DNA from: Herpetosiphonaceae bacterium
GTDB lineage: Bacteria; Chloroflexota; Chloroflexia; Chloroflexales; Kallotenuaceae
Direction of reading: 5' to 3'
DNA: 53,389 bases
NCBI GenBank assembly: GCA_013821605.1
Contig: JACDGP010000023.1
Span: forward strand, 1-53,389
The notes below the pieces were generated by a model. It did not search any database. It had not been told where the DNA came from and saw only the letters and a list, made by a program, of their open reading frames with translations. Of this stretch, positions 8,880 to 49,742 are shown piece by piece. Every line of letters starts with the position of its first letter. The stretch's first letter is position 1. Position numbers and translations under genes: made by a program.

Positions 8880-10034
8880 TCAACGGCGGCGCACGGTCGG
8901 GGCGGGGCGGGCGGGCACGGGCGAAGGGGGTGGCGGAGGGACAGTCGTCGGCGATGGCGGGGACAACGTTGCCGTGGGGACCGGCGTATCGGTGGCAGTT
9001 GCAGTGGCCGTCGGCAGCGCCGTTGGGGTTGAAGTTAACGTGGGCACCGGTGTTATGGTTGCAGGCAGCGGGGTGTTGGTCGGCGTTGGCGTCGGTGTTG
9101 CACGCGCAAAGGCCCCACGAATATTCTGGCCCAACACGCCCACATTGGAGCGCGCTTTGGCCGAATAGCTTAACCCGCCAACTAACAACACCAGTGCCAC
9201 CAGCAGTCCCGCGACCGGGGCCAGCCAACGTGGCAACGTACGCGGCTCCGGGCGACCACCCAGACTGGGCAAGGGCTGAAAGGGTCCTATGTCATGCTGG
9301 CGGCGGAAGTCGGCCAGTGCGTGGGCTCCATTGAGGCCGAGGTACTCAGCGTACTCCCGCACCATCTGGGCAGCCAACGGTCCACGCGGTAGGAGACCGA
9401 ACTTTTCTTCCTCCATGGCTTGTAAATACCAGATCGCAATGTTGCTCTTGGTTTCTAGGTTGACCTGAACCAATGACTGGCGGCGCGATTGGCGTGCTGC
9501 CCGCAGCCGTTCACCAAGTGGCAAATCCTCGATGGGCTGGGCTAGGGGCTCGACCGGTGCCGTCGGCGCGCTCATCAACTCGCGCTCGGCGGCATGGTCC
9601 ATAAACATCTCGGCCTCTTCCGCCGGAGGCAGTTGGCGGGCAGCCGGTTGGTAGCCGCTGACCGGCGGAGAGCTGGCAGGCGCTGGAGTTCCCAGCCGGC
9701 TGCGAATGCGAGCGAACAATTCATTGGTGCGGTACGGTTTGCTCAACACATCCACCGCGCCCGCTTCGAGCGCTTCGACCACCTCTTCTTCGCGCGCACG
9801 GCTGGTCAACACCAGGACTGGTGTCCCCCGCCGTACTGCATAGGACAGCAACTCCCAGCCTGCGCCGCCGTCGCTGTTAACCTCAAGGATCACGAGATCC
9901 GGCGGAGGCTCAAGCAACTGCGCACCATTGTCAACGTCGGAAGCACGCAGCACAGTGTAGCCGGCCCGTTCGAGATCAGTGCCGAGCGCTGCTAAGAGCG
10001 AAACATCGTCATCTACCAGAAGGATTGTCGCCAA
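8880..10034 (-). CDS. Receiver domain fused to a RodZ-like HTH and membrane anchor
   Basis: This 384-residue fusion has three parts. Residues 1-116 are a response-regulator receiver fold: ILLVDDD acidic pocket (Asp8, Asp9), Thr77 in VLVLTS, Lys99 in LSKPY. At the site where the phosphorylated Asp is expected, the sequence is DLVILEV, with Glu51 instead of Asp. Residues 170-246 are a RodZ/HTH_25-type helix-turn-helix (LGERLRAARQSRRQSLVQVNLETKSNIAIWYLQAMEEE.., then LPRGPLAAQMVREYAEYLGL). Residues 271-290 form one transmembrane helix, followed by a Thr/Pro-rich tail of about 75 residues that would lie outside the cell. RodZ links MreB to the wall machinery; a receiver domain in front is unusual. 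The Glu may mimic the phosphorylated state permanently. An extended -10 on this strand (10070-10078) lies 36 bases upstream. Confidence 0.8.
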   Translation of the reverse strand: MATILLVDDDVSLLAALGTDLERAGYTVLRASDVDNGAQLLEPPPDLVILEVNSDGGAGWELLSYAVRRGTPVLVLTSRAREEEVVEALEAGAVDVLSKPYRTNELFARIRSRLGTPAPASSPPVSGYQPAARQLPPAEEAEMFMDHAAERELMSAPTAPVEPLAQPIEDLPLGERLRAARQSRRQSLVQVNLETKSNIAIWYLQAMEEEKFGLLPRGPLAAQMVREYAEYLGLNGAHALADFRRQHDIGPFQPLPSLGGRPEPRTLPRWLAPVAGLLVALVLLVGGLSYSAKARSNVGVLGQNIRGAFARATPTPTPTNTPLPATITPVPTLTSTPTALPTATATATDTPVPTATLSPPSPTTVPPPPPSPVPARPAPTVRRR

Positions 10035-24554: not shown

Positions 24555-24806
24555 ATGCTTACCAGTGTCGAGGGTGTGTACCATAACGGCAAGATTGAGT
24601 TGACCGAGCAGCCGACCGGCTTGCATGGCGACGTGCGGGTGATCGTTACCTTTATGCCACTTAATTCCGTTGACCTTCCTGCCCGTGGGATAGACGTGAC
24701 TGCAGCAGCCGAGCTACGACAGCGCTTAACATCCTTTATCGATGAATGGAATAGCCCCGAGATGGATATCTATGACAGCTACCCTCCCGCAACCACTAAG
24801 CCCTAA
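24555..24806 (+). CDS. DUF104-like antitoxin partner of the MazF-type toxin
   Basis: The 83-residue product starts MLTSVEGVYHNGKIELTEQPTGLHGDVRVIVTF, the short beta-rich swapped-hairpin pattern of DUF104/AF2212-like antitoxins, and its C-terminal half (RLTSFIDEWNSPEMDIYDSYPP) is acidic and likely wraps the toxin. AAGGAG lies eight bases before ATG 24555. It overlaps the toxin gene by 35 bases in another frame, consistent with coupled translation. Family assignment is moderate. Confidence 0.65.
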   Translation: MLTSVEGVYHNGKIELTEQPTGLHGDVRVIVTFMPLNSVDLPARGIDVTAAAELRQRLTSFIDEWNSPEMDIYDSYPPATTKP

Positions 24807-25140
24807 ACGGGGTGATGTCGTACTGGTGCTGTTTCCGAACTCCAACCTTCGCACCGCCAAACTGCGACCTGCTCTCATCGTGCAGGCTGATCAGCTTGAG
24901 AGTGGCTTACAGCAAATTATCGTTGCCATGATCACGAGCCGCATGTTTCGAGCCAATCATCCTTCACGCGTACGCATCGTGCAATCGCGTCCAATTGGTC
25001 AACGGTCGGGCTTGCTCAGTGACTCAGTAGTGATGACGGACAACCTAGCCACGATTAGTGAAATGGCGATCGAGCAAGTGATCGGGATAATCCCCATGGC
25101 CGAGGTTGACGCAGCATTACGCCATACGCTGCACCTATAA
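24772..25140 (+). CDS. MazF/PemK-family endoribonuclease toxin
   Basis: The 122-residue product has the family pattern: KRGDVVLVLFPNSNLRTAKLRPALIVQADQ (N-terminal GDVVLV.FP and KxRPALIV with the catalytic Arg region), IIVAMITSR, and GLLSDSVVMTDNLATISE near position 90. MazF/PemK enzymes cut mRNA at short motifs and are held by an antitoxin. Start ATG 24772 lies inside the antitoxin gene and gives a family-length protein; longer alternatives upstream lack a ribosome-binding site. The pair sits among decayed genes. Confidence 0.8.
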   Translation: MTATLPQPLSPKRGDVVLVLFPNSNLRTAKLRPALIVQADQLESGLQQIIVAMITSRMFRANHPSRVRIVQSRPIGQRSGLLSDSVVMTDNLATISEMAIEQVIGIIPMAEVDAALRHTLHL

Positions 25141-25414: not shown

Positions 25415-27844
25415 ATGACAGACACGGATCAACACGAAGTTGAGATCACCGAGCAGTCCACCACGGAGCGGACACTGCCCCTAGTCATTCTGGGCGAAAT
25501 GGTGATCATGCCCCGCATCCCGGTGCCTTTACAGGTTGGCAAAGGTAAATCGTACCGTGCCATGGAAGAGGCCATGGAGGGTGACAAAGAGGTATTGCTC
25601 ATCTTCGTTCCAGAGTCCGACATCGAAGGCTTTAAAGGTAACGCGCCGCAGCCACTGCCACCGGTCGGGGTGATTGCACGGTTGGAAGAGTTCGCCAAGA
25701 AATCCGATGATACCGTCCAGATTATTCTGGAAGGGGTCAGCCGAGCCGAGGTGAAGGACTACGCGCAAACCGATCCCTTTTACCGCGTCACCTGTGTGCC
25801 CTACACCGACCCCGAAGTAGAGGGTCCCGAGGCCGAGGCGCTGATGGGCGAGGTGAAGTCGCAGGTCGAAGAGATCATCAGCTATATGCCGGATGTCTCG
25901 CAAGAGGCCGTAGCCTTTGTTAAGCGGATCACGCAACCCGGTCATCTAGCCGATGTGGTGGCCTATGGGCCGTCCTTTGAGTTTCAGGATCGGCTGGAGT
26001 TGCTGCTTACCCTGGATCCGATGGAGCGGCTGCATAAAGTGCAGCTTGAGCTATCGCACCAGCTTGAGCTCTTGCGCCTGCGGCAGAAGATTCAAAGCGA
26101 AACGAAAGATGCGCTCGACCAGTCGCAAAAAGAATACTTCCTACGCGAGCAGATGAAGGCCATTCGGCGCGAGTTGGGCGAAGACGAGTTCGACGAAGAT
26201 CCGGTTGACGAGCTCAAGCGCAAGATTTTGGAGCTTGACGCACCCGACTATGTCAAAGAGGCGGCGACGCATGAGCTCAAACGGCTGATCCAACAAGGCA
26301 TGAACTCACCCGAAGCCGGTGTGATTCGGACCTATATCGACTGGATACTGAGCTTGCCATGGGCCAAGGAGACGCAGCAGCCGATCATTTTGAGCGAAGC
26401 ACAGAAGATCTTGGATGAAGATCACTTTGGCCTCAACAAGGTCAAGGAGCGCCTGATCGAATACCTGGCGGTGCGCAAGCTCGCCGGCGAAAAGATGCGT
26501 TCGCCGATCCTGTGCTTTGTGGGACCACCCGGCGTTGGCAAGACTAGCCTGGGCAAAAGCATTGCGCGGGCACTGGGCCGCCAATTTGTACGTGCCTCGC
26601 TGGGTGGCGTACGTGATGAGGCCGAGATCCGCGGGCACCGTCGCACCTATATTGGTGCGATGCCCGGTCGCATCATTCAAAGCTTGAAGACGGCGAAGTC
26701 GAATCAGCCAGTCTTTATTCTCGATGAGATCGACAAGCTCGGTGCCGATTTCCGGGGCGACCCGACGTCGGCCTTGCTCGAAGTACTTGACCCCGAGCAG
26801 AACAACACTTTCTCGGATCATTACATGGAGATTCCGGTCGATCTGTCGCAGGTGATCTTTATCGCCACCGCGAACCAGCTTGATCCGATTCCGATGCCGC
26901 TGCGCGACCGTATGGAGATCATCGAGATCGGCGGCTACACCGAGGACGAGAAGCTCGAAATCGCCAAGAACTTCCTGGTACGTAAACAGCGTGAGTTCCA
27001 CGGCTTGAAGCCGGAGCAGTTCACCGTAACGGACGAGGGCTTATTAAAGCTGATCCGCGCCTACACCCGTGAAGCGGGCGTACGCAATCTTGAGCGCGAG
27101 ATCGCGGCGCTCTGCCGCAAGGCGGCCCGCAGAGTTGCCGATACGGAGGAGCAGGTCAAGGTCGCCATCGACGCCAAGGATGTACCCGACTATCTTGGGC
27201 CCGAAAGGTTCTCGTTCGGCTCCGCTGAGGCGAAGGACGAAATCGGTGTGGCGACCGGCGCGGCCTATACTGTCACCGGCGGCGACCTGCTGCAGTTCGA
27301 GGTCTTGCCCCTCCACGGCAAAGGCGAGTTGCGGCTCACGGGACAGCTTGGCGACGTGATGAAAGAGTCGGCGATGGCGGCCATGAGCTATGCGCGCTAT
27401 CGCTCCGCCGACTTTGGCATTCCGGCCTCGTACTTCGAAGACCACTCGATCCATATCCACGTGCCGGAAGGTGCCGTGCCCAAAGATGGTCCCTCGGCGG
27501 GTATTACCCTGACTACCGCGTTGGTCTCAGCGATGACCGGACGTGCTGTGCGCAAGGATGTGGCGATGACCGGTGAGATCACCCTGCGTGGCAAGATCCT
27601 GCCGATCGGTGGCCTAAAGGAAAAAACCCTGGCGGCACATCGCGCCGGCATCAAAACTTTCCTCCTGCCACAGGAGAATGCTAAGGACATTGTGGAACTG
27701 CCGGAAAAGGTGCGTAAAGAGTTGGAGCTGATTCCGGTCGAGAACATGGACCAGGTGCTGGCGATTGCCTTACGACCACAGATTATGGCAGTCACACCAC
27801 CGACACCGGCACCAATTCCACCTCCGGTGATCACAGTAGCCTAA
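25415..27844 (+). CDS. lon: ATP-dependent protease Lon
   Basis: Lon degrades damaged and regulatory proteins in the cytosol. The 809-residue product has, in order, the substrate-binding LAN domain (TLPLVILGEMVIMPRIPVPLQVG), a helical region (YFLREQMKAIRRELGE), the AAA+ module with Walker A GPPGVGKTS from residue 370, Walker B FILDEIDKLG and sensor RDRME, and the C-terminal protease domain with catalytic Ser694 in PKDGPSAGITL and a Lys near 737 in IGGLKEKTLAAHRAG. Length and order match LonA. Heat or stress control is likely given the promoter region but unproven. The gene is monocistronic: an intrinsic terminator follows within 20 bases. Confidence 0.97.
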   Translation: MTDTDQHEVEITEQSTTERTLPLVILGEMVIMPRIPVPLQVGKGKSYRAMEEAMEGDKEVLLIFVPESDIEGFKGNAPQPLPPVGVIARLEEFAKKSDDTVQIILEGVSRAEVKDYAQTDPFYRVTCVPYTDPEVEGPEAEALMGEVKSQVEEIISYMPDVSQEAVAFVKRITQPGHLADVVAYGPSFEFQDRLELLLTLDPMERLHKVQLELSHQLELLRLRQKIQSETKDALDQSQKEYFLREQMKAIRRELGEDEFDEDPVDELKRKILELDAPDYVKEAATHELKRLIQQGMNSPEAGVIRTYIDWILSLPWAKETQQPIILSEAQKILDEDHFGLNKVKERLIEYLAVRKLAGEKMRSPILCFVGPPGVGKTSLGKSIARALGRQFVRASLGGVRDEAEIRGHRRTYIGAMPGRIIQSLKTAKSNQPVFILDEIDKLGADFRGDPTSALLEVLDPEQNNTFSDHYMEIPVDLSQVIFIATANQLDPIPMPLRDRMEIIEIGGYTEDEKLEIAKNFLVRKQREFHGLKPEQFTVTDEGLLKLIRAYTREAGVRNLEREIAALCRKAARRVADTEEQVKVAIDAKDVPDYLGPERFSFGSAEAKDEIGVATGAAYTVTGGDLLQFEVLPLHGKGELRLTGQLGDVMKESAMAAMSYARYRSADFGIPASYFEDHSIHIHVPEGAVPKDGPSAGITLTTALVSAMTGRAVRKDVAMTGEITLRGKILPIGGLKEKTLAAHRAGIKTFLLPQENAKDIVELPEKVRKELELIPVENMDQVLAIALRPQIMAVTPPTPAPIPPPVITVA

Positions 27845-27907: not shown

Positions 27908-27936
27908 TTGACGCGGCTTATGTGCGTCCGTATAGT
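27908..27936 (+). promoter_or_regulatory. Sigma-70-type promoter of the LacI-family gene
   Basis: TTGACG (27908-27913), exact 17-bp spacer, TATAGT (27931-27936). Transcription would begin near 27943, giving a leader of about 22 bases that contains the operator and no Shine-Dalgarno sequence. Confidence 0.75.
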
Positions 27937-27948
27937 AGGGGTACGTAA

Positions 27949-27962
27949 TGGAAACCATTCCA
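27949..27962 (+). promoter_or_regulatory. LacI-family-type operator overlapping the start region
   Basis: TGGAAACCATTCCA is a dyad (TGGAA-N4-TTCCA) resembling LacI-family operators of the TGGAAACGTTTCCA type. It lies a few bases downstream of the predicted transcription start and two bases before the ATG of the LacI gene. Autorepression by the encoded regulator is inferred. Confidence 0.55.
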
Positions 27963-27964
27963 TA

Positions 27965-28954
27965 ATGGCGACGATCAAGGAAGTAGCCCAACATGCGCGC
28001 GTAGGTGTTGGCACAGTCTCGCGGGTGATCAATAACGCCAGTGCGGTCCACCCCGAAACGCGGGCACGCGTACAGCGCGCTATTCTTGAGCTTGACTACT
28101 ACCCGAACCAAGCGGCGCGCCAACTGGTAACCGCCCAAACCTTGACCATCGGCGTCATCCTCCCTTTCTTGGTTCGACCCTTCTACGTCAACGTGCTGCA
28201 AGGCATTGCCGCCGCCGTCCTACCCTCCCCCTATCATTTGAATATATTCAACGTTGAGACCGCTGCCATTCGCAGCTATTACTTCGAAGAGCTACCGGTC
28301 CGTGGTCGCATCGACGGGCTGATCGTCATTTCGTTGCCCCTTGAGCAAGCGGACGTCGATCGGCTACGAGGAGCCCGCATCCCAACCGTGCTGATCGATG
28401 GCTGGCATCCGGAGATCGCGTCCGTGGGCATGGACAATCGCGCCGGAACTCGCCTCGCTGTCGAGTACTTGATCGGGCGCGGGCACCGGCGCATCGCATT
28501 TATGAGTGGCCCACTTGACGAAGAGTTGCACTTCCAGGTGAACCGCCACCGCTTAGAAGGCTACCATGCAGCCCTAGCAGCGCACGATTTGCACTCCTAT
28601 CCGTCGATGGAACAATCCGGCGTCGACACATATGCCGGCGGCGGCTGGATGACCGAACAGCTACTCGATCTACCCGTCCCGCCGACAGCTATTTTTGCAG
28701 CCAGTGACGTCCACGCGCTCGGTGCCTTACAGACTGCCGTCCGGCGTGGCTTACGCGTCCCCGAAGATATAGCGATCATGGGCTATGATGACATCGAGCT
28801 TGCACCCTATGTTAACCTAACGACCATGTGCCAGCCGATGGCCGAGATGGGACGCCGGGGGGTTGAGTTGCTGATGGAGCAGCTTGGGGCGGAGCCGCCA
28901 CAACCTATCCATGACGTATTGATGGCGACGTTGGTACCCCGTGGAACGGCTTAG
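27965..28954 (+). CDS. LacI-family transcriptional regulator
   Basis: The 329-residue product has the LacI DNA-binding helix-turn-helix at the N-terminus (MATIKEVAQHARVGVGTVSRVINNASAVHPETRARVQRAILELDYYPNQAARQL), with a hinge helix, followed by a periplasmic-binding-protein-like sensor domain (TIGVILPFLVRPFYVNVLQGI ... DGLIVISLPLEQ ... PTAIFAASDVHALGALQTAVRRGLRVPEDIAIMGYDDIELAPYVNLTTMCQP). ATG 27965 is chosen because it begins the family start and follows the operator. The effector is probably a sugar handled by the kinase and glycoside hydrolases that follow on the same strand. The kinase starts 17 bases after the stop, so they form one operon. Confidence 0.93.
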   Translation: MATIKEVAQHARVGVGTVSRVINNASAVHPETRARVQRAILELDYYPNQAARQLVTAQTLTIGVILPFLVRPFYVNVLQGIAAAVLPSPYHLNIFNVETAAIRSYYFEELPVRGRIDGLIVISLPLEQADVDRLRGARIPTVLIDGWHPEIASVGMDNRAGTRLAVEYLIGRGHRRIAFMSGPLDEELHFQVNRHRLEGYHAALAAHDLHSYPSMEQSGVDTYAGGGWMTEQLLDLPVPPTAIFAASDVHALGALQTAVRRGLRVPEDIAIMGYDDIELAPYVNLTTMCQPMAEMGRRGVELLMEQLGAEPPQPIHDVLMATLVPRGTA

Positions 28955-34355: not shown

Positions 34356-35168
34356 ATGACTCATGCGCTGCCTATGACCGAATCGTCAGTGACCGCACCC
34401 ACCCTTGACTGGAAGCTGTGGATCTATACCAACTATGACTGCAACCTGCGCTGCTCGTATTGTGTTGCCAAATCCAGTCCGAATGCCCCACGGCGGGCAA
34501 TCGGCCTAGCGAATGTCCAGCGGCTCGTTGATGAGGCGGTCGAACTCGGCTTTACCGATGTCTTCTTTACCGGCGGCGAGCCCTTTATTCTCAACGACAT
34601 TTACGAGATGCTGGCCTATGCTTCGGCCCGCGTACGGACGACCGTATTGACTAACGCCATGCTGCTCCGCGGCTCGCGGCTGGACAAGCTCGCGGCGGTT
34701 GCTAATGACAACCTCCATGTGCAGGTCAGTCTCGACGGCGGACGTGCCGAAGACCATGACGCATATCGTGGGGCGGGTGCTTGGGCTAAGACCGTCGAAG
34801 GCATCAAGCTGCTGCAGGAACGGGGGTTCCGCGTCCGGCTTTCCACGACCGAAACGCCGGCCAATGCGCAGCATCTCGACAAAGTCTGTGCGTTTCACCG
34901 CTCACTAGGCATTTCCGACGAAGATCACTTTGTCCGCCCGCTCGCTAAACGCGGCTATTCAAAAGAGGGTCTTGAGCTTGGCATGGATAATCTGGTGCCA
35001 GAGCTGACAGTGAATCTTGATGGTATCTTCTGGCATCCGCTTTCGACTGATTCTGATATGCAGGTGAGCAAAAAAATCTTCCCGCTGGCAGCAGCCTACG
35101 AACGAGTGCGTGAGCAACTCGCGGTCATGGCTGAGACTGGTGGCGTCCCTCTGATGACCTTTACTTGA
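34356..35168 (+). CDS. Radical SAM protein in a TusA/DsrE cluster
   Basis: The 270-residue enzyme has the iron-sulfur motif CNLRCSYC (Cys29, Cys33, Cys36), a FTGGEPFIL SAM-binding segment, SLDGGRAEDHDAYRGAG and a NAQHLDKVCAFHRSLG region, so a MoaA/SPASM-type catalytic barrel. No C-terminal SPASM cysteine cluster is present: only one further Cys (in VCAF) is seen. The substrate is unknown. Being coupled to TusA-like and DsrE-like proteins, it could insert sulfur or act on a sulfur compound (inference). The C-terminal portion (about residues 210-270) resembles no domain I know. A GGCTCCC hairpin and a Lrp-like gene follow. Confidence 0.85.
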   Translation: MTHALPMTESSVTAPTLDWKLWIYTNYDCNLRCSYCVAKSSPNAPRRAIGLANVQRLVDEAVELGFTDVFFTGGEPFILNDIYEMLAYASARVRTTVLTNAMLLRGSRLDKLAAVANDNLHVQVSLDGGRAEDHDAYRGAGAWAKTVEGIKLLQERGFRVRLSTTETPANAQHLDKVCAFHRSLGISDEDHFVRPLAKRGYSKEGLELGMDNLVPELTVNLDGIFWHPLSTDSDMQVSKKIFPLAAAYERVREQLAVMAETGGVPLMTFT

Positions 35169-37442: not shown

Positions 37443-38129
37443 CTACCGATCAAGGTCAGCCTCGCCCAATCCTTGCACAAAAGCATAGGTCCGCGGTGCA
37501 CGGCCATCGCCACTACGGGCGACATCGTCCAGCAAGACCTGCAGATCGGCTACAGTGTCGAGATCGTACCAGGGCAGCACGTCGACCAGCGCGAGGCCGG
37601 CCTCCTTGGCCCGCTCCCGCGTTTGGGCAGCCACGATCTCAGTGCTCCAGGTGATGCGCTCGAACAGAATTGGCTGGGGCCGACGCATGCCGATGAGATA
37701 ATACCCACCATCGGAGACGGCCCCGAGCACGGCATCGACCTCCGTGCGGTCGAGGGCGACAAAAGCCTGCTCAAGCGCCGCCTGTGGCACACTGGGATTG
37801 TCGGTGCCGATCATCACCATCCGGTCCGCTCCCTGTGCCGCAAGCTGCGTGAACGCGCTAAACAAGCGCTCCCCAAAGCCGTTCCCATGTTGGGGAATGA
37901 GGGTGAATCCGGGCGCAAGTGCCGCAAAAAAGGCTTCAGCAGCCATGCTTGCAGGCGCGTAGCTGATCACGTGCTCAGCGGCAGGGTAGCTCGCAACGAT
38001 GTCGATAGTATCTTGCAATGTGCACCGGTATAAGTCAGCCGCACGATCTGCTCCCAGGGTCCCCGCCATGCGCGTCTTGACTTGGCCTGCGACCGGCTCT
38101 TTGGCGACAATAATTAGGCAGCGTTTCAC
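37443..38129 (-). CDS. DUF2064-family glycosyltransferase-like protein
   Basis: The 228-residue product belongs to the TIGR04282/DUF2064 group of small GT-A-like proteins, some of which are linked to arsenosugar biosynthesis. It shows CLIIVAKEPVAGQVKTRMAGTLGADRAADLYRC, GNGFGERLFSAF, DRMVMIGTDNPSVPQAALEQAF and DAVLGAVSDGGYYLIGMRRPQPILFERITWSTE. The D-x-P or GTDNP motif is the probable nucleotide-sugar site. GTG start at 38129 behind AAGGGATGTTGG. It is the last gene of a five-gene minus-strand operon with GT2 and GT-C glycosyltransferase genes. Confidence 0.85.
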   Translation of the reverse strand: MKRCLIIVAKEPVAGQVKTRMAGTLGADRAADLYRCTLQDTIDIVASYPAAEHVISYAPASMAAEAFFAALAPGFTLIPQHGNGFGERLFSAFTQLAAQGADRMVMIGTDNPSVPQAALEQAFVALDRTEVDAVLGAVSDGGYYLIGMRRPQPILFERITWSTEIVAAQTRERAKEAGLALVDVLPWYDLDTVADLQVLLDDVARSGDGRAPRTYAFVQGLGEADLDR

Positions 38130-38246: not shown

Positions 38247-38936
38247 TCAGCGCCAGGCATGCTTGAGCGTCAGGACCAGCATATGGTAGCCCGCCAACAC
38301 TGAGCCACGGATGGTTCCACCTACCTTCGATTCGCCGCCCAACCGTGCACCATAGCTTGTGGGGACTTCCACGATGGGCAACTTGCGCCGCGCTACCTTT
38401 ACAATCATTTCCGTAGGCCAACCATACGTTGGCTCGCGCATGTCGAGGGCCTGAAGTGTAGCGCGGCGGATTGCGCGAAACGGCCCAACGTCCGTCACAT
38501 GAATGCCATACAGCAGCCGGAGCAGCAGGGCGACCAGGCGATTCCCGAAACGTTGATGCGGCGGCATAGCGTTGCGTGCCATGCCTCCCAGTTCTCGTGA
38601 CCCCAGCACCAACTCGGCGCGGTCAGCAATGATCGGCTCGACCAACGCTCCAATCTGTGCGGGATCGAATGATCCGTCGCCGTCCAGAAAGACGACGATA
38701 TCGGCATCTAATGCCGCCTCGGTTCCAGCACGGCACGCATTCCCATAACCACGCCGAGGTTCTAACACGACGTCGGCACCGGCATTCCGGGCGATACCGG
38801 CAGTATCGTCGGCGGAGCCATTATCAACAACGACGATACGATGAACCACGCTGCGCGGTATGGCCTGTACGACATTGGCAATGGTTGCTGCTTCGTTCAA
38901 TGCCGGAATGATCGCCACGACTTTCACAGGCACCAC
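38247..38936 (-). CDS. GT2-family glycosyltransferase (dolichyl-phosphate mannose synthase-like)
   Basis: The 229-residue GT-A enzyme shows VKVVAIIPALNEAATIANVVQAIPR, VVDNGSADDTAGIARNAG, ADIVVFLDGDGSFDPAQI (DxD-type motif DGD) and GMARNAMPPHQRFGNRLVALLLRLLYG. That is the typical pattern of polyprenyl-phosphate mannose or glucose synthases. Products are polyprenyl-P-sugars which feed GT-C enzymes; the neighbour at 38994 is such an enzyme. The start is GTG 38936, with GTAGAAGG upstream; a GTG nine bases later (38927) is also possible. No C-terminal transmembrane helices are seen. Confidence 0.87.
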   Translation of the reverse strand: MVPVKVVAIIPALNEAATIANVVQAIPRSVVHRIVVVDNGSADDTAGIARNAGADVVLEPRRGYGNACRAGTEAALDADIVVFLDGDGSFDPAQIGALVEPIIADRAELVLGSRELGGMARNAMPPHQRFGNRLVALLLRLLYGIHVTDVGPFRAIRRATLQALDMREPTYGWPTEMIVKVARRKLPIVEVPTSYGARLGGESKVGGTIRGSVLAGYHMLVLTLKHAWR

Positions 38937-38993: not shown

Positions 38994-40577
38994 CTACGAG
39001 GCTGCCGGCGCCAGGTGCTGCGGCACATGATGGCGGTGCAGGATGGTCCGCGTGTTGATGAGCAACAGCATCAGTAGCGGAGGCACCAATAAGATCACTA
39101 TGGTCAGCACATCGATCTGTGGACCGTTAAGGTGATGCGCCGGATCCTGGTTCAGAAAATCGGTGAGCACATTGCTCCATAACGCCCCAGCCGAAAACAG
39201 CGGCAAAACGGTTTGCGTAAACCGGTCGCCTGGCATCAGCGCAGCCAGCACCAGTATCCACACCACATACCAGCTTTGAAACCAGAAGCAGCCGATGATG
39301 AGGTACGCAAGGATCACCGAAATGCTCGTGCGCCACAGCAGCCCGTCGTCGCTCACCGTACGTGAGCGACGCCAGAAACTCAGGAGCAGCAAGGCACCAA
39401 CGACCAGGAAGCAGAGCGTCGCCCCCCGAATCACGAACTGGCGTGCCAGGGTTTCATCCCAATTTCCACGAATACGGAGCTGATCAAAGACAATGTTGGC
39501 TATGGAATTGTAGGTAAGAATTGCTCGCTCGCGCACCATGCGTGGCAAGGTATCCCAACCACCATACTGCCTGTATAGGAACCAAGAGATCGGCAGCGCG
39601 ATCGCCGCCGCGCGGATGCTTGCCCAAAGCGTCGGCCAAGCACCCCGACGCCGCATGACCCAGAGCAGGAAGACCGGCACCAGCACCAAGATCGTGACCT
39701 TCACATGACCCGCCATGCCGAGCGCAACCAACCCGAACACAAAACGCTGGCGCTGAAACGAGAGCACGGCCAGCAGCAGCAGCATGACCATCATGCCATC
39801 ATTATGGGCACCGACGGCGACAGCGATGATCAACACGGGATTCCAGAGCCAGGCGACCAAGGCCGCCGGTACCAGCCGGCGGTCACGTCGAGCCACGATG
39901 ACACTCATGATGCCGGCGCTGATCGTTGTTAGCGTGATCGCGAGCACCCGGTAGCCAATAATATAGTCGGCCAGCCCCGGTGCATGGCGCAGACTCACCA
40001 GACGCGCAACCAGCGCACTCGGATACTCCCACAGGGGACCATAGGCGTCGACCCAATTATTCCAGGTCAGGTAGGCATAAAAGGGCTGGGTCTGAAAGGC
40101 GTCCGGGGTCGTCGCCAAGGGGCTCGCACCGAAAAGCGCTTGCATCCGGCCACGGAACACGTAGTCGAAGATATCGAGTGAGTCACCGGGATACGCGCGG
40201 AGCAGGCTGCCACAAAAGATCAGCCACCCGCATACGACGAGTACCGAGGTTACAACAACTGCCCGCATCGGGATGCGTACGGCCAAACGGAGCGCTGCCA
40301 TGTAGTCTACGATCAGGAGGCCGTAGACAATGCCATGCCGGAGTCCGGCCGCCAGCGAAAAATTGACGAGCGGCGGCCAGGTGATGTGCGGTGTGAGTAA
40401 TCCTTTGCTCAAAGGGTACGGCACGGAGATGCCCGCGAGGTAAAGACCAGTGCTCAGCAGCGCGATCGCGGCCAGCCCTATAAGAGCGTACCGCGACCGC
40501 ACCTGTTCGTCATTGGAGCTGTGATGAGTGAGTTGGTCCAACGCCACCACCATGGTGTCGCGATCAGGTGATGGCAT
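38994..40577 (-). CDS. GT-C membrane glycosyltransferase (MptB/GT87-like)
   Basis: A protein of about 527 residues with roughly 12 hydrophobic segments. It contains GSLLRAYPGDSLDIFDYVFRGRMQALFGASPL, an early acidic extracytoplasmic loop, and DAYGPLWEYPSALVARLV typical of polyprenol-phosphate mannose-dependent mannosyltransferases (MptA/B, GT87-like). Start options: ATG 40577, overlapping the DoxX stop by 14 bases, or ATG 40553; neither has a clear ribosome-binding site, as expected for a coupled gene. Together with the neighbouring GT2 it suggests synthesis of a membrane glycolipid or glycan. Confidence 0.72.
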   Translation of the reverse strand: MPSPDRDTMVVALDQLTHHSSNDEQVRSRYALIGLAAIALLSTGLYLAGISVPYPLSKGLLTPHITWPPLVNFSLAAGLRHGIVYGLLIVDYMAALRLAVRIPMRAVVVTSVLVVCGWLIFCGSLLRAYPGDSLDIFDYVFRGRMQALFGASPLATTPDAFQTQPFYAYLTWNNWVDAYGPLWEYPSALVARLVSLRHAPGLADYIIGYRVLAITLTTISAGIMSVIVARRDRRLVPAALVAWLWNPVLIIAVAVGAHNDGMMVMLLLLAVLSFQRQRFVFGLVALGMAGHVKVTILVLVPVFLLWVMRRRGAWPTLWASIRAAAIALPISWFLYRQYGGWDTLPRMVRERAILTYNSIANIVFDQLRIRGNWDETLARQFVIRGATLCFLVVGALLLLSFWRRSRTVSDDGLLWRTSISVILAYLIIGCFWFQSWYVVWILVLAALMPGDRFTQTVLPLFSAGALWSNVLTDFLNQDPAHHLNGPQIDVLTIVILLVPPLLMLLLINTRTILHRHHVPQHLAPAAS

Positions 40578-41118
40578 ACAGCAAGCGGGCGATACCATTG
40601 CCACGTGCGGCTGCCTCTAAGCGGGCATGCAATGCGCCATCCACGCCCAATGCTCGACCGGCTCCCCCTAGCGCAAGACTCAGCGCAACAATCATGGGCA
40701 CCAATAATTCCCAGGGCCACGCAGTGCCCAATTCCGAGACCCATAAGCTGGTAAGAAATGCGAAGGCTGCCAGTCCAACCGGACGGGTCAGGAGACCCAC
40801 CAGCAACAATACACCGAAGGACAGTTCGGTGACGGCTTGCAAGGGTGCCGTGACGGTTGCGTGGTCCGCCGCGAACTGCATGACTGCCTTCCATGCGGCG
40901 GGCGCGTGTCCATTTTTTATGTAGCCACCGATCAGACCGGCATAGCCATCGGGTGTATATAGCCCTTTGCCTTTATTCTCGAAAAACACCGACACAAACA
41001 ACACCCCCAGGGTCAAGCGTAGCAGTGTCAGGGCAATCTGTGCACCGGGGGCGGGCACAACTGCTGCGCTGGCTACCGGCTTGGTCCGCTGTGGCAGTAC
41101 CCCTTCTCGTTCCATCAT
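40564..41118 (-). CDS. DoxX-family membrane protein
   Basis: The 184-residue product has four hydrophobic segments with the DoxX/TQO-small pattern: TLLRLTLGVLFVSVFFENKGKGLYTPDGY, AVTELSFGVLLLVGLLTRPVGLAAFAFLTSLWVSE, AWPWELLVPMIVALSLALGGAGRALGVD. DoxX proteins work with quinone oxidoreductases or other membrane redox systems, but many are uncharacterised. GGGAGTTCT is the ribosome-binding site. It lies second in the operon, after the NUDIX gene. Confidence 0.85.
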   Translation of the reverse strand: MMEREGVLPQRTKPVASAAVVPAPGAQIALTLLRLTLGVLFVSVFFENKGKGLYTPDGYAGLIGGYIKNGHAPAAWKAVMQFAADHATVTAPLQAVTELSFGVLLLVGLLTRPVGLAAFAFLTSLWVSELGTAWPWELLVPMIVALSLALGGAGRALGVDGALHARLEAAARGNGIARLLYAIT

Positions 41119-41177: not shown

Positions 41178-41720
41178 TTACAACCTGCGCAGGCGCGCCG
41201 CATGCAGCACGGCAATGACCGTCATGCTGTCTCGAATTTCACTGGACAGCACCTGTTCGAGCACCTCCGCAAATGGCAGTGTCGCGATCTCAAAAAATTC
41301 TGTGTCGTCTGGCGGCAGCGTTTGCGACACCAGATCATGTCCCAGGTAAAGATGGGCAACCTCGTCGCAGATACTTTTCGAGGTGTAGTAGCTACAGATG
41401 GGCGTGAGGCGGTTCGCCGCATAACCCACCTCCTCCTGCAACTCGCGCTGCACCGCTGCTTCCAACGTCTCACCCGGCTTGATACCACCGGTTGGCATTT
41501 CCCAGCGGTGATTCTCGTGCTGCACATACCGGTACTGGCGCACCATCAGGACGTGGTCATCATCTACAAACGGCAGCACACCAACGCATCCACCAAACGT
41601 AACAACTCCATAGATCGTCGTATGTCCATTGGGCAACTCAGCTTGATCTTCGCGGAGCTGCATCCATTTGTTGTGGTACACCGGCCGGCTGCTCAGCGTT
41701 TTCCAAGGTGTTGGCGGCAT
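41178..41720 (-). CDS. NUDIX hydrolase (ADP-ribose pyrophosphatase-like)
   Basis: The 180-residue product has an intact Nudix box, GGIKPGETLEAAVQRELQEEVGY (residues about 86-108), following the typical VLMVRQYRYVQHENHRWEMP and preceding LTPICSYYTSKSICDEVAHLYL, the pattern of ADP-ribose pyrophosphatases. The box needs only divalent metal and cleaves nucleoside diphosphate-X compounds. Its promoter (41825-41880) lies about 105 bases upstream and carries the same box as two neighbouring operons. It is the first gene of a five-gene operon. Confidence 0.88.
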   Translation of the reverse strand: MPPTPWKTLSSRPVYHNKWMQLREDQAELPNGHTTIYGVVTFGGCVGVLPFVDDDHVLMVRQYRYVQHENHRWEMPTGGIKPGETLEAAVQRELQEEVGYAANRLTPICSYYTSKSICDEVAHLYLGHDLVSQTLPPDDTEFFEIATLPFAEVLEQVLSSEIRDSMTVIAVLHAARLRRL

Positions 41721-41824: not shown

Positions 41825-41880
41825 ATACTAGCAACCAACGATTGCATGGGAGTTACGGAAATATAAACAGTTTCTTACAC
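41825..41880 (-). promoter_or_regulatory. Shared promoter box, copy 2 (NUDIX-glycosyltransferase operon)
   Basis: On the plus strand, three 7-base units at an 11-base period are GTTACGG-N4-ATAAACA-N4-CTTACAC (41852-41880). On the transcribed (minus) strand they are followed 21 bp downstream by TAGTAT (41825-41830), a -10-like element. A further stretch (GTAAGAAA...TGCAA..GTT) also matches copy 1. The geometry is like a PhoB/PhoP-type activator box covering the -35 region. Transcription would start near 41818. Confidence 0.65.
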
Positions 41881-41919
41881 GCTGCGCCGGGATGAATGAC
41901 CGAGCCAATGTAGGAGCAG

Positions 41920-43332
41920 TCATCCGAGCATAACCGGAAGGAGAACGCCCAATCCAAGCGTAAAGAGCCATAACGCCGGCGCTGGAGTGCCAACGGGGCG
42001 ACGACGACGGGCTTCGCGTGCCGCGATACGTGGATCGAGGAGGAGCCAGGCGGTATGACGGCGCTCCAGCAGCAGGAAGGCAGTGGCAGTTGCGGCACCG
42101 TAGATCAGATGGCCGATCAGCGACGGTAGCGCGGCACCGGCGGCTGCGGTCGTCCAGGTAAAGGTGCCGCCGAGTAAGATCGGTAGCAGCGTCAAGCGGC
42201 CGACGAACCACCAGACTAAACCATACACTAGACCCCAGGCAATTCCGGAGCCGACGTTCGGTGCCTCGTAGCGGAAGAGCACGCCATAGCTCATGCCGAT
42301 CACTGCACCGATGACCAGATGCACCAGGAAGCCGGTTGCTGCCGACGTCCCGCCCATCAGGTGGGCAATCTGGGGCAGCGTGCCGGTCGCGGCCATCACC
42401 AGGCTGAACAAGAGGCTACCACCCACACTGGCAGCAGCACCCCATCCCAGGGAACGTACCGTCGTCGTACCGGGTCCCTCTACCTCACGGTTGATCGGAT
42501 CCGACTCCACAAAGAAGCCGATCCACAACCGATCCACTGCGGCGTAGATCAACCCAACGATCAACCCGTAGATAATATGTCCGACCAATGAGCCAAACAG
42601 TGCGCCACCCCGCTCGTAGGACCAGTCGAGCGCGCGACCCTGAAAGAGCGGCAGCAGCGTGAGCGGCCCCAGGAACCACCAGAACAAACCATAGGCCATG
42701 CCCCAAACTAGGCTAGAACCGAGGCCGCGCAAATCCCGCTGAAAGAGGAAGCCGAAGCTGATACCGATCACGATGGCAATGGCATAATGCAGCGCCATGC
42801 CGACAGCGCGCGAGGTTGAGCCGACCAAACCCGCGATGATCAGAAAGAAGTTGATTTGTTCCATCCACTTGCCAAAGGCCCAGCCACCAACAATCCCGGC
42901 GAGGCCGCCGACGACCAGTGCACGCGGCAGGCTGAAAGGATTCTGCGAATTGGTCGTGCCCTGCCGCATGGATGCATGCATACCGAGGGCTAGGCCGAGG
43001 GGTAAGCCAAAGCACAGTACGTACCCAATCAGTTCGGGAAAATGACTCCTTGCTGTATCAAGCATGCCCATAGCATGAACACTTGTTAGTAGTGGGAATA
43101 ATCCTGCCGGACCGGCCAGCCACAGCAGGAAGGCATAGCCCAGACTCCACAGCAGGCCAGCACCCGGACTTACCGCCCGCGACGCGCCGAGCAACGCGAA
43201 GACCAGGCCATACAGGCTCCCAAGGAGGACGCCAGAGCTGAACGAGCCCAACCCTAATGCGAGGTAGACTATGCCCCCCAGGCAACCGGCACCGCCGCCT
43301 ACCAGGAGTTCGGTGGTACGTGTTGAAGACAT
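41920..43332 (-). CDS. Polytopic membrane protein with three tandem repeats
   Basis: A 470-residue hydrophobic protein with three copies of a domain of roughly 95-100 residues: G-x3-G-x-x-(Y/F)-G-x-x-(F), then [33 protein letters not shown] or [21 protein letters not shown], and a (S)LIGH(L/I)IYG block. Copies lie at about residues 30-115, 175-260 and 335-420. The function is unknown. Related single domains form the N-terminus of the adjacent NADH dehydrogenase. The start ATG 43332 with GGAGTGCGCC precedes the stop of the next gene by 12 bases, so both are in one operon. Confidence 0.7.
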
Positions 43333-43343
43333 GGCGCACTCCT

Positions 43344-45092
43344 TCAAGAAGCAGGCGGTGTACTGGCGTGGGGATCCACTACCACGCGGACCCGCGCATC
43401 ACCGACATCAATCGTCTGGACAATATCGCGGGGAAAGAACAACTCAATCAGCCAGTCGACGAGCACACGCACTTTGCGCTCCAGACCCGGCAATTTACTA
43501 AGGTAGATAGCCCGCCACATCAGCCACGCCAGCAGCCCGGAGAAACGCAGTGACCGGCCGTGGACGAACGGCACGTTCAGTTCGGCACACGCAGTGTGGT
43601 GACCGACGACACAGAGCACGCCCAACGCGGCGAAGTGGAATGGCTTCAGGGGCCGGCCCTGGAGCGTGGCCCGGATGTTATAGGCGACCGTTGCCGCTTC
43701 CCGTAACGCAAACTGCGCCGTCGGCGGGCATGCTGTGCCGAGCTTCGCATCCGTCACCGCCGCGCAGTCCCCGAGTGCCCACACGCCGGCATGACCCGGG
43801 ACTGCAAGCGTGTGATCCACGCGCATGCCGCCCCGTGCATCACGTTCTACAGGTAGGGCTTGGATGAGTGGGCTGGGCATAGTCCCGGCCGTCCAGACCA
43901 GCGTCTCGGTGAGGATCTCTTCGGCCGGCTTCAAAACTACCACCCCACGTCGCGCTCCCGCAACGCGCGTGTTCAGCTTGAAGGTAACGCCTCGTGCGGC
44001 CATGCGCTCCCGCGCATAGGTGGCCAGCGGAAGACTCAATTCTGGTAGGATCCGGTCGCGTGAGTGGACCAGGATGATCTGCAGTTCCTCCGGCGGAATG
44101 TGCGGGTAATAGGCGAGCATGCCACGCGCAAAATCGTTGAGGCCGCCCGCAAGCTCCGCACCGGCAAAGCCGCCACCTGCCACGACGAAGCGCAACAGCG
44201 ACCGGCGGATAGCTGGCTCAGGCTCCTGATCGGCCCGATCAAACATATCGATCACATGGTTGCGAATACGGATCGCATCGGCCAGCGACTTGAAGTCGAA
44301 TGCTTCCTCCTGTACCTGTGTGAGTCCCAGGTAGTTGGAAACCGAGCCCAACGCGAGCACGAGGTGGTCGAAGCGCAGTTCGCGCCCGCCAGGAGCGTAA
44401 TCGTCTGGAGCGATCACAATGCGCCGTTGCTCCAGGTCAATCGCTGCGACGCTGCCGCGCACGACCGTCGTCCGGTGCAGTGTGGTGCGCAGGGGGCTGC
44501 TGATATGGGTCGGCTCGAGACTGCTCGCCGCGACCTCCGCCAGCATCGGTGTGAAGAGCAGGGCATTCGTATCGCTCACCAGGGTGAACGTGACCGACGG
44601 ATCCGCCCCAAATTCGTGTTCTAGCCGAGCGGCCGTGGTCACCCCCGCGAAACCACCACCCAGGATCACGATCTGCGTGGCAATCACCGGTCGTACCGGT
44701 GTTGCCACGAGATCTGGGCCCAGCCAACGTAGAGCAACATCGCTCAACGCCTGGAAGATCAGCCCAAGGCCCGCGCCGTAGAGCACCCAGCCCACCAGCA
44801 TGGGAAACAGCGCACGCATCCCAGTGCCGGTCCACTGCGGGACTTCTCCTACGAAGAGCGGGAGCATGATGACGCTGATCAGGCCCCATAGCGGCACACC
44901 GAGGGCTGCGGCAGTCAGCACACTATCAAGGTATGCGTGCGGCACCGAATGAAAGGCTAGCGCGTAGCCAACGCCGAGCAGCATACCGAGCAGTAACCCG
45001 AGGCCCCAGTGGTTGAGCGTGGCGGCCAACAAGGCACCGCTCGCCAGACCCGCCACCAGTCCAAGCACTCCGCAGCGGAAATACCTGTTCAC
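43344..45092 (-). CDS. Type II NADH dehydrogenase-like flavoprotein with membrane N-terminus
   Basis: This 582-residue protein has two parts. Residues 1-125 are about four hydrophobic helices matching the repeat of the neighbouring gene ([15 protein letters not shown]..., [18 protein letters not shown]). Residues 135-565 are an NDH-2-like oxidoreductase: [14 protein letters not shown] (FAD Rossmann motif), [56 protein letters not shown] (NAD Rossmann) and [14 protein letters not shown]-2 enzymes oxidise NADH and reduce quinone without pumping protons; usual length is about 400-430. The C-terminal [37 protein letters not shown] is the membrane-associating tail. The GTG start has AAAGG upstream. 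Confidence 0.85.
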
Positions 45093-45124
45093 GCATCACA
45101 CCTTTCGCTCGACACTTCGTCTGT

Positions 45125-45180
45125 ATGCTAGCGACGAACTGTTGCACACGAGTTACGGAACTCTGAACACTTTCTTACGC
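45125..45180 (-). promoter_or_regulatory. Shared promoter box, copy 1 (NADH dehydrogenase operon)
   Basis: GTTACGG-N4-CTGAACA-N4-CTTACGC (45152-45180 on the plus strand) is followed on the minus strand, 21 bp downstream, by TAGCAT (45125-45130). The predicted transcript has a leader of about 26 bases before the GTG at 45092. It matches copies 2 and 3 with identical spacing. Confidence 0.65.
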
Positions 45181-45308
45181 ACTATGCTTGGCGGCACCAC
45201 AGGAGTTGCACGCGAGTAGAGCGAGCGTTGGGACGTGACTGGTGGCACCGGGAGTGTCGGCACTGCTGGCGCTCACTCTAGCAGCAGGAGCAGGAATAAC
45301 CAAAGAGA

Positions 45309-46178
45309 TCAATAATGATAGTCCCCTTCAGTAATCGTCCCACGCTCATCATAGAAGCCTGCCTGATCAACCGCCGCGTCCAGTGCACGATACCCTTCGA
45401 CGCGACCCTCCTGCCACGCCGTAACGCCTTCGAGTTCCATTAATGGCCTGACGTCCGGATCAGCGAACGACATGCCGAGCAGTAGATCATGGAAGCGCTG
45501 GACCAAGTCGGATGGAACGCCGGGTCCGACGGTGAAGTTACAGTGATCGTAGGGCCCAGTTTCGCCGATTACACGTGTCGAGCCGGGGGTCAAGGTGCGA
45601 TCCTGCACAAACGCATCATAATTGCCGCGAATAAGGCAGGCAGCATCTGCGGTGCCCTGCATTAACGCCTGTGCACTCGCTCGCTCGCCGCCAATATGAT
45701 CGCCGTGCTTGCCTGCCAGTACATCATGGCGTTGCACGGTAAAGTCAACCCCCGGCTCAAGTCCTTCCTGCTGCAGATACGCGAGCGGTAGCAAGCTCGC
45801 TTGAGGTGAGTCAATCGCGCCAACTGCGATAACCTTGCCCTTGAGATCGGTGATCGTGGTGATCAGGGCGTTAGACCGCACGACGACCACCGAACGGAGG
45901 TCGCAATCCGTATCACGCATCGCAATCGCCTGCACCTGCTGCCCGGCAGCGCGAGCCATGCGCTCTGCCCGGATCCATGCTAAGGGCGAGTTCCAGGCGA
46001 CGTGGCAATAGCCCGCCAGCAGTGCCTCGACCTGTCGTTCGTAATTCGAAAAGAGGATATAGTCGAACGGTAGGCCCCGGCTGATGAAGTAGGCTTTGAA
46101 GCCTTCCCAAATCGTAACGACCTTGGGATCGTACGCAACCGCCCCGAGCACAAGTGTCTCTGCTTGATCCAACGCCAT
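45309..46178 (-). CDS. PhnD-like substrate-binding protein without signal peptide
   Basis: The 289-residue product has the phosphate/phosphite/phosphonate-binding (PhnD, PBP type 2) pattern: FKAYFISRGLPFDYILFSNYERQVEALLAGYCHVAWNSPLAWIRAE, SVVVVRSNALITTITDLKGKVIAVGAIDSPQASLLPLAYLQQEGLEPGVDFTV, and HDVLAGKHGDHIGGERASAQALMQGTADAACLIRGNYDAF. It starts MALDQAETLVLG, with no signal peptide or lipobox. A cytoplasmic role as ligand sensor or carrier is therefore likely, unless secreted by another path. The next upstream gene encodes an acyl-CoA dehydrogenase-like flavoprotein, from which it is separated by a strong hairpin. Confidence 0.78.
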   Translation of the reverse strand: MALDQAETLVLGAVAYDPKVVTIWEGFKAYFISRGLPFDYILFSNYERQVEALLAGYCHVAWNSPLAWIRAERMARAAGQQVQAIAMRDTDCDLRSVVVVRSNALITTITDLKGKVIAVGAIDSPQASLLPLAYLQQEGLEPGVDFTVQRHDVLAGKHGDHIGGERASAQALMQGTADAACLIRGNYDAFVQDRTLTPGSTRVIGETGPYDHCNFTVGPGVPSDLVQRFHDLLLGMSFADPDVRPLMELEGVTAWQEGRVEGYRALDAAVDQAGFYDERGTITEGDYHY

Positions 46179-46227
46179 AGCTGTCTGCTCCTACACTATG
46201 CCAAAAAACTCTCTGGAACTACCCCGC

Positions 46228-46261
46228 GCTAACGGGCACGTTGTAAAACGTGCCCGTTAGC
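46228..46261. other. Perfect 15-bp hairpin with GTAA tetraloop
   Basis: GCTAACGGGCACGTT and AACGTGCCCGTTAGC are separated by GTAA (46243-46246), a GNRA-type loop on the plus strand (TTAC on the minus strand). The stem is perfect over 15 bp. No T-run follows on either strand, so it is not an intrinsic terminator. It lies between the acyl-CoA dehydrogenase and PhnD-like genes and may be a processing site or an mRNA-stability element setting unequal expression. Confidence 0.6.
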
Positions 46262-46295
46262 AAACATCAATACTTTGAAAAACCGCTAGGACGGC

Positions 46296-47432
46296 CTAGC
46301 CAAAAAGCGGCAGCCCACAGATCGCCTTGCCAATGAAGTCGTAGAGTACATCCGTGGTCGGTGCCATCACGGTAGCTGCACGCGCATCACGGAAATGCCG
46401 TTCAACACCAACTTCCTTGCGGAATGCAGCACCGCCGCAGACGCGCATGGCGAGATCGGTCACCTCAGTAGCTGCTTCGCCAGCGGCAGCTTTGACCTCA
46501 AGCACCCGCAACATCGTATCGGCGCGACCACTTTCTACCGCCGCGATGGTGTCGAGGAGCAGGGCCCGCGCCATATCTGTTTTGATCCGCATACGTGCCA
46601 AATAGGCCCGGACGGTCGGCAGATCGGCAAGCGACTGGTTGAGATGCTGCAACGGGGTATCGGCAACGTGGGCCGCCGCTTTCGTCGTCGCAGCGTCCAT
46701 CGTCCCAATCGAAAAAGCAGCATTCATCAGCTGGAAATAGGGCAGGACAACGCCCATCATTACGTCGAAGCCACCACCATCGGCTCCCAGCATAGCGGCA
46801 CGCTCGACAGTCGCGCCCTCGGCCGTGACCGGACTTGAGGCGTTGCCACGGAGGCCGAGGCCGTTAAAAGGGGCAGCAATGCGCAAGCCGGGCGCGCCGA
46901 CCGGCACCAACCAGAGCGCACTTGCACCTTCCGTAGCCAACGGCTTGCTCGACCACACATAGCTACTCACCTCGCCGGCACCGGTTACCCAACTCTTGCG
47001 CGCATCAAGTTCGACGTGGCCGTTGGAAGCAGTCGCTGTGCTGACCGGTGCCCAAAAATGACTACGTGACCCCATTTCCGAGAAGGCCAGCGTCGTCAGG
47101 TGTCGACCGCCGGCAATAGCCTGGCGGACGTCGGCCGGTCCGTATGCTTCAATCACGGCTGTACCCGCGTAGTGCATGCAGGTCACCATCGCCGTGGATG
47201 CACATGCTTGCGCCAGCCGCTCGACCACGAGGGCAGCCGCGCGATGTGCCTGCCCCTGCCCGCCTACATCGGACGAACTGACCAGCCCAAGCAAGCCTGC
47301 CTTGCCAAGTGCGTCGATGGCCGCGCGCGGGAACGTTCCGGTCTGATCAATTTCCACAGCAGCGGGAGTGACCACTTCGTTGATCACACGATCGAGGATG
47401 TCTAGATAGGACGGCGTTTGCGAATCTGGCAT
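46296..47432 (-). CDS. Acyl-CoA dehydrogenase-family flavoprotein
   Basis: The 378-residue protein has an N-terminal helical domain (VINEVVTPAAVEIDQTGTFPRAAIDALGKAGLLGLVSSSDVGGQGQ), a middle region (TLAFSEMGSRSHFWAPVSTA..., KSWVTGAGEVSSYVWSS) and a C-terminal helical domain (VEVKAAAGEAATEVTDLAMRVCGGAAFRKEVGVERHFRDARAATVMAPTTDVLYDFIGK). The catalytic Glu of mid-chain enzymes is not evident; the family also includes SfnB/DszC-type monooxygenases. Two start options exist: ATG 47432, or TTG 47441 preceded by AAGGAG at ideal spacing. It is downstream of promoter box copy 3 and upstream of the PhnD-like gene. Confidence 0.82.
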   Translation of the reverse strand: MPDSQTPSYLDILDRVINEVVTPAAVEIDQTGTFPRAAIDALGKAGLLGLVSSSDVGGQGQAHRAAALVVERLAQACASTAMVTCMHYAGTAVIEAYGPADVRQAIAGGRHLTTLAFSEMGSRSHFWAPVSTATASNGHVELDARKSWVTGAGEVSSYVWSSKPLATEGASALWLVPVGAPGLRIAAPFNGLGLRGNASSPVTAEGATVERAAMLGADGGGFDVMMGVVLPYFQLMNAAFSIGTMDAATTKAAAHVADTPLQHLNQSLADLPTVRAYLARMRIKTDMARALLLDTIAAVESGRADTMLRVLEVKAAAGEAATEVTDLAMRVCGGAAFRKEVGVERHFRDARAATVMAPTTDVLYDFIGKAICGLPLFG

Positions 47433-47513
47433 GGTAGACAAGAGCAACTCCTTTTGCAGCGAGCGTTGCCCACACATCACCGAACAGCGACGCAGAGGCC
47501 GTTCACGCCCGCA

Positions 47514-47569
47514 CTGATACCGTCAGATTGCCATGTACAGGTTACCGAACTATTGTCAAAATCTTACGC
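47514..47569 (-). promoter_or_regulatory. Shared promoter box, copy 3 (acyl-CoA dehydrogenase operon)
   Basis: GTTACCG-N4-ATTGTCA-N4-CTTACGC (47541-47569 on the plus strand) is followed on the minus strand, 21 bp downstream, by TATCAG (47514-47519). It is the most diverged of the three copies but keeps the 11-base period and the distance to the -10-like element. Apart from this, 47442-47870 contains only a short CCCC-GAGCAAC-GGGG hairpin (47790-47804). Confidence 0.55.
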
Positions 47570-49060: not shown

Positions 49061-49078
49061 TTGTGCTATACTACACAA
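49061..49078 (+). promoter_or_regulatory. Crp-type palindrome over the promoter of the Crp-family gene
   Basis: TTGTG-N8-CACAA is a perfect dyad that encloses TATACT (49067-49072), a good -10 element. The spacing is close to the TGTGA-N6-TCACA family site. It lies 35 bases before the ATG of the Crp-family gene, so autoregulation is plausible. Confidence 0.5.
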
Positions 49079-49112: not shown

Positions 49113-49742
49113 ATGGCAGCAGAGCGACGCTGGGATGATCTTGAGCGGCGCGGCATGACCCGTCGCTTCGTCAAAGGCGGCATTATTTATGCGCCTGACG
49201 AAGCGGCGACCGAACTCTTTGTGATTCGTGAGGGCCAGGTCGCGTTAAATCTCTTGTCGCCTGAAGGCCGCACGCTGACGGTACGGGTCGTCAAGGCCGG
49301 CGATATCTTCGGCCATGCGGCCTTGTTGTCCGATGGAACCTTCGATACCTTCGCACAGGCGCTCGAACCAACCACGGTCGCAGCTGTGCGGCATGATACG
49401 CTGGAAGAGTTGATGAGCCAGCGTCCGGCCTTGGCGCTTGGATTGATGGAGGATCTAGGACGCCATTCCCAGCGGCTGTCGCAACGGCTGGAAAGTGTAG
49501 CCTTTAAATCGGTCCCGGCGCGTCTGGCTACTGTACTGCTTGAGCTTGCACAGTTTGGCGGTCGTGACGGCGTGACGACCGGACGCTGGACCCACCAAGA
49601 ACTGGCCGATATGATCAATGCCTACCGTGAAACGGTTACGAAAGTCCTCAACCAGTTCCGGACTGCTCAATTGATCGAAGTCAACCGCCAGGGTGTGACG
49701 CTCCTTAATATCGCGGGCTTGCGCGAATTAGCTCAGCACTAA
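49113..49742 (+). CDS. Crp/Fnr-family transcriptional regulator
   Basis: The 209-residue product has an N-terminal cyclic-nucleotide-binding-like domain (IIYAPDEAATELFVIREGQVALNLLSPEGRTLTVRVVKAGDIFGHAALLSDGTFDTFAQALEPTTVAAVRHDTLEELM) and a C-terminal Crp helix-turn-helix (GRWTHQELADMINAYRETVTKVLNQFRTAQLIEVNRQGVTLLNI). No Cys cluster for an FNR iron-sulfur cluster is present. The effector is unknown; the loop GDIFGHAAL suggests ligand binding as in Crp. AAGGGAAGG precedes ATG. Confidence 0.9.
   Translation: MAAERRWDDLERRGMTRRFVKGGIIYAPDEAATELFVIREGQVALNLLSPEGRTLTVRVVKAGDIFGHAALLSDGTFDTFAQALEPTTVAAVRHDTLEELMSQRPALALGLMEDLGRHSQRLSQRLESVAFKSVPARLATVLLELAQFGGRDGVTTGRWTHQELADMINAYRETVTKVLNQFRTAQLIEVNRQGVTLLNIAGLRELAQH

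Follow-up and report, generated by a model that had tools for sequence, protein, structure and literature searches.

Two questions are raised by three neighboring operons in the genome of a Herpetosiphonaceae bacterium, that is, whether they are served by one and the same promoter, and whether that promoter is of the phosphate-responsive, PhoB/PhoP type originally proposed for them. The window, by which we mean the whole stretch of DNA that was analyzed (53,389 bp of contig JACDGP010000023.1), contains three minus-strand transcription units in succession: a dehydrogenase pair, an NDH-2 pair, and a NUDIX-DoxX-GT-C-GT2-DUF2064 operon (41720 down to 37443). Each has one of three similar boxes, termed A, B, and C, in the gap directly before its first gene (Table 1). 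The coordinates given for these boxes in the original prediction, and their exact 21-bp spacing to -10 hexamers, checked out in all three cases.

Table 1. Boxes, -10-like hexamers, and genes of the three minus-strand transcription units, with positions in the window.
Feature	Position	Strand	Remarks
Box C, GCGTAAGATTTTGACAATAGTTCGGTAAC	47541..47569	-	5' of acyl-CoA dehydrogenase operon; most diverged of the three copies
-10-like hexamer TATCAG	47514..47519	-	Weak; 21 bp past box C
Acyl-CoA dehydrogenase-like flavoprotein	46296..47480	-	Rv1679/FadE16 family is the nearest match (404 bits; cut-off 600)
Substrate-binding-protein-like protein	45309..46178	-	Rv1680 family is the nearest match (238 bits; cut-off 400)
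Box B, GCGTAAGAAAGTGTTCAGAGTTCCGTAAC	45152..45180	-	5' of NDH fusion operon
-10-like hexamer TAGCAT	45125..45130	-	21 bp past box B
NDH-2-like pyridine nucleotide-disulphide oxidoreductase	43344..45092	-	N-terminal membrane extension
Repeat membrane protein	41920..43347	-	Partner of the NDH fusion, conserved in relatives
Box A, GTGTAAGAAACTGTTTATATTTCCGTAAC	41852..41880	-	5' of NUDIX operon
-10-like hexamer TAGTAT	41825..41830	-	21 bp past box A
NUDIX hydrolase	41178..41720	-	First gene behind box A
DoxD/DoxX-like membrane protein	40564..41118	-	
GT-C-like glycosyltransferase	38994..40604	-	Weak ALG3/PIG-U matches
GT2	38247..38936	-	Polyprenyl/dolichyl-phosphate sugar transferases are the nearest matches; scores under the cut-offs
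DUF2064/TIGR04282 protein	37443..38129	-	176 bits (cut-off 134)

All three copies have the same order of elements: GYGTAAGA, the conserved TGNNNANA, TTCSGTAAC, 21 bp, and a -10-like hexamer. Specifically, the distance from GTAAGA-N12-TTCSGTAAC to the hexamer was exactly 21 bp in 3/3 copies. The internal structure had been described as three units of seven bases that recur every 11 bases, which was an overstatement. In a column-shuffle test the outer 7-mers (units 1 and 3) did repeat each other, 22 bp apart (p ~0.003), whereas the middle unit had no resemblance to either of them (2-3/7 matches, p ~0.22-0.26). The element is therefore a 22-bp direct repeat of GTAAS around a different conserved middle. 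A transcription start ~7 nt after the -10 would place GTAAC between about -38 and -34 and GTAAG near -60. A simple promoter scan of the minus strand recovered no sigma-70-type -35/-10 hexamer pair at the box sites, and a search for RNA families returned a tRNA as its sole match.

An AAC-containing, -35-like motif at a fixed spacing, together with the missing sigma-70 -35, could point to an ECF-type sigma factor that reads GTAAC and the -10 element, the upstream GTAAGA being secondary. However, GTAAGA at ~-60 is equally invariant and lies outside a sigma footprint, and no ECF gene was recognized among the window proteins scanned, such that we consider this explanation unlikely.

The resemblance of the three copies is not a chance effect. 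Because the search patterns were derived from the copies themselves, shuffles and reversed-pattern controls carry more weight here than raw counts. The 27-base pattern GTAAGANNNTGTTNANNNTTCCGTAAC, allowing ≤3 mismatches, was found three times in the window compared to 0.00 times in 100 shuffles, and at the same stringency it recovered only boxes A-C across the 5.88-Mb genome. Likewise, exact matches to GTAAS-N17-GTAAC-N21-TA numbered three in the genome, again only boxes A-C (reversed-pattern control, 2). GTAAGA-N12-TTCSGTAAC also matched exactly at these boxes only, with the next best sites having two mismatches and being at background level; with 2-3 mismatches genome-wide, matches were not above the reversed control (106 vs 228).

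Copies A and B are alike beyond the box units, as was originally noted, with 46/62 bases identical compared to 33 in the best of 60 dinucleotide shuffles. This likeness extends from the box to shortly beyond the -10, where it declines, with flanks that do not match, while copy C has mainly the core in common with A and B. If a non-coding segment had recently been duplicated, with no regulation in common, this would produce an A-B agreement that extends over ~60 bp beyond the box and a C that retains mainly the core, as well as a trait that is missing from relatives (see below). What the copies have in common, however, is the box-to-promoter region and not its surroundings, and both orientation and the 21-bp spacing were kept in 3/3 copies; we therefore regard duplication without shared regulation as improbable. 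The same promoter architecture stands before three transcription units, and hence the three operons are probably co-regulated by one factor next to the -35 region. Thus, with respect to the proposed promoter common to three operons, the architecture is real and co-regulation probable, while the Pho/PhoB identity was not supported.

Under that identity, boxes A-C would be PhoB/PhoP-type Pho boxes and the three operons would belong to a phosphate-limitation regulon. The phasing does appear to be roughly 11 bp by eye, the middle units on the plus strand (CTGAACA, ATAAACA, and ATTGTCA) look like Pho-box halves, and a pst-phoU operon is present in the same genome (contig C93). Moreover, as in the PHO box (PMC4415409, PMC1906773), the boxes have short repeated units near -35, phased by about one helical turn, before several operons. 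A Pho box is defined by at least two 11-nt direct repeat units, each with 7 conserved and 4 less conserved nt (PMC4415409), whereas in boxes A-C no single 7-mer is directly repeated every 11 bp, given that the middle unit does not repeat the outer ones. In addition, the direction in which they read as Pho-like is opposite to that of transcription.

The pstS genes of this lineage provided a direct comparison. Upstream of pstS in the same genome is CTTAACGTGTCGTTAAT, that is, CTTAAC-N5-GTTAAT, and upstream of pstS in a relative (G017) is CTTAACATACGCTTAAC, that is, CTTAAC-N5-CTTAAC, both of them 11-bp repeats in the gene direction and close to the cyanobacterial Pho box CTTAACCT (PMC1906773). 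Based on these two sequences, CTTAAC-N5-(C/G)TTAA(C/T) (L085 6580-6596, minus strand, and L105 309-325) is a candidate Pho box of this order. Boxes A-C differ from the pstS box of their own genome in both sequence and spacing. They are also confined to one locus: with strict patterns no box was found at pst or elsewhere in the genome, with looser patterns matches did not exceed the reversed-pattern control, and no pst, pho, or phn gene was among the genome-wide box matches. The Pho reading of the boxes thus appears unsupported at the sequence level, and we rate it as very improbable.

The substrate-binding-protein-like protein had been taken as PhnD-like, but its score against the PhnD equivalog model TIGR03431 was 39.6 bits, far below the cut-off of 261, and its best model was that of the Rv1680 family (Table 1). 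No signal sequence was evident by eye at its N-terminus (start MALDQAETLVLGAVAYD), and its neighbor is an acyl-CoA dehydrogenase, a pairing also seen in two further genomes of the class (L102 and L103). Three glycosyltransferases had been counted, whereas the operon behind box A has two and a DUF2064 protein. The suggested swap of phospholipid for glycolipid is not supported either, the GT2 being of the polyprenyl-phosphate-sugar kind and not a phosphate-free glycolipid synthase. In the remaining unit, the repeat membrane protein contains repeats that resemble the N-terminal membrane extension of the adjoining NDH fusion, and the two are found together as a conserved pair at several loci in Chloroflexota, occurring twice in G403.

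A radical SAM protein closest to Rv1681 was also encoded in the window (34356-35168, +), such that relatives of the Mycobacterium tuberculosis Rv1679, Rv1680, and Rv1681 products are all located within 13 kb. A literature search on the function of Rv1679-Rv1681 returned nothing.

The boxes were not conserved at orthologous genes. None was present in 10 regions upstream of NDH orthologs, in the short stretch left before the contig end at an eleventh (G055), or upstream of two acyl-CoA dehydrogenase orthologs. Furthermore, the pattern occurred at background level only, both in 60 relatives and in 400 genomes of the phylum. The trait therefore appears to be lineage-specific or too young to footprint, and so phylogeny offers no proof of function. 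Conservation at orthologs had been set beforehand as a test of the Pho idea, which fails because the boxes are absent from the upstream regions inspected. Among five chance matches inspected, one had the same 21-bp spacing, which is not enough to claim a further box. This site (L006 1501-1570; G012:C125:19921), from another family of the order, has GTAAGA-N12-TTCCGTAAG located 21 bp before TACAGT, in front of an AMP-binding gene; chance may account for it.

With respect to which protein might act at the boxes, three regulators were recognized in the window: a CRP/FNR-family protein (49113-49742, +), a LacI protein (27908-28954), and a response-regulator receiver protein with HTH_25 (8880-10034, -). 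The latter makes the statement that no two-component genes lie in the window not quite right, and its joining of a receiver domain to HTH_25 (RodZ-like) is an unusual combination. GTAAS-N17-GTAAS was not found before any of these three genes, nor was a local regulator of the kind that binds direct repeats recognized.

Of the regulator genes, that of the CRP/FNR-family protein, which was absent from the initial account, lies closest to the boxes (1.5 kb from box C), and the protein could in principle bind them. However, CRP-type sites are palindromic and the boxes are not; only the direct repeat was found there, with no palindrome resembling TTGTG-N8-CACAA, a consensus that may not be the site of this particular protein. 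Moreover, four family relatives have this protein with 76-79% conservation, yet their genomes gave no box pattern, and so it is a weak candidate. In the stretches around CRP in these four relatives there was no boxed-operon gene, so the role of CRP is evidently broader. We consider binding of the boxes by this protein improbable. Separately, a perfect TTGTGCTATACTACACAA palindrome (49061-49078) overlaps the probable -10 of the CRP/FNR gene and was not seen in the four family relatives.

Promoters of the AraC/XylS type have half-sites spaced 21 bp apart and overlap the -35. The boxes are similar to such direct-repeat promoters (PMC5481539) in that two half-sites in direct orientation are separated by about two turns of the helix, the proximal one abutting the -35 region, but they differ in that the spacing is 22 bp, in that the half-sites do not each contain an A-box/B-box pair, and in that no AraC gene was recognized nearby. 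In LytTR promoters, direct repeats are located ~10 bp upstream of the -35 and ACCnCTTAn is read with the promoter (PMC6193735). Like boxes A-C, they have direct repeats ahead of a weak promoter, the 9-mers being separated by 11-13 bp. In boxes A-C, however, the motif is GTAAS and there is no such gap, the proximal repeat abutting the -35.

Overall, we lean with moderate confidence toward a lineage-specific private regulon, in which three copies of one ~60-bp regulatory promoter are bound near -35, probably by an activator. A transcription factor would bind the two GTAAS half-sites, two helical turns apart, as well as the conserved TGNNNANA between them. The downstream half-site would lie directly against the -35 region, an arrangement typical of class II activation, and the three operons would thus rise and fall together. 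The missing good sigma-70 -35 fits activator-dependent promoters, although a repressor would leave the same traces as an activator at the boxes. Copies A and B are probably either a duplicated promoter cassette or kept alike by selection, while copy C may be older or weaker. Counting against a private regulon are the number of sites (only three), the poor -10 at copy C, the lack of boxes at the orthologs inspected, and the lack of a recognized direct-repeat-binding regulator nearby.

More tentatively, a lineage-specific factor with an undescribed site (GTAAS, TGNNNANA, and GTAAS over 27 bp, located 21 bp from the -10) could run this private three-operon regulon and so couple the NDH-2/membrane-protein pair, the Rv1679/Rv1680-like flavoenzyme pair, and a polyprenyl-sugar glycosylation operon. 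The shared promoter joins three gene sets, unrelated in other respects, into one likely functional unit, providing a lead to the roles of the Rv1679/Rv1680-like pair and of the NDH-2 fusion in Chloroflexota. At the same time, a wrong phosphate label is removed, and the likely appearance of a Pho box in this order can be sketched for the first time.

Finally, elsewhere in the window, we noted a PemK/MazF-like toxin gene (24742-25140, +) upstream of a Lon protease gene (25415-27844).
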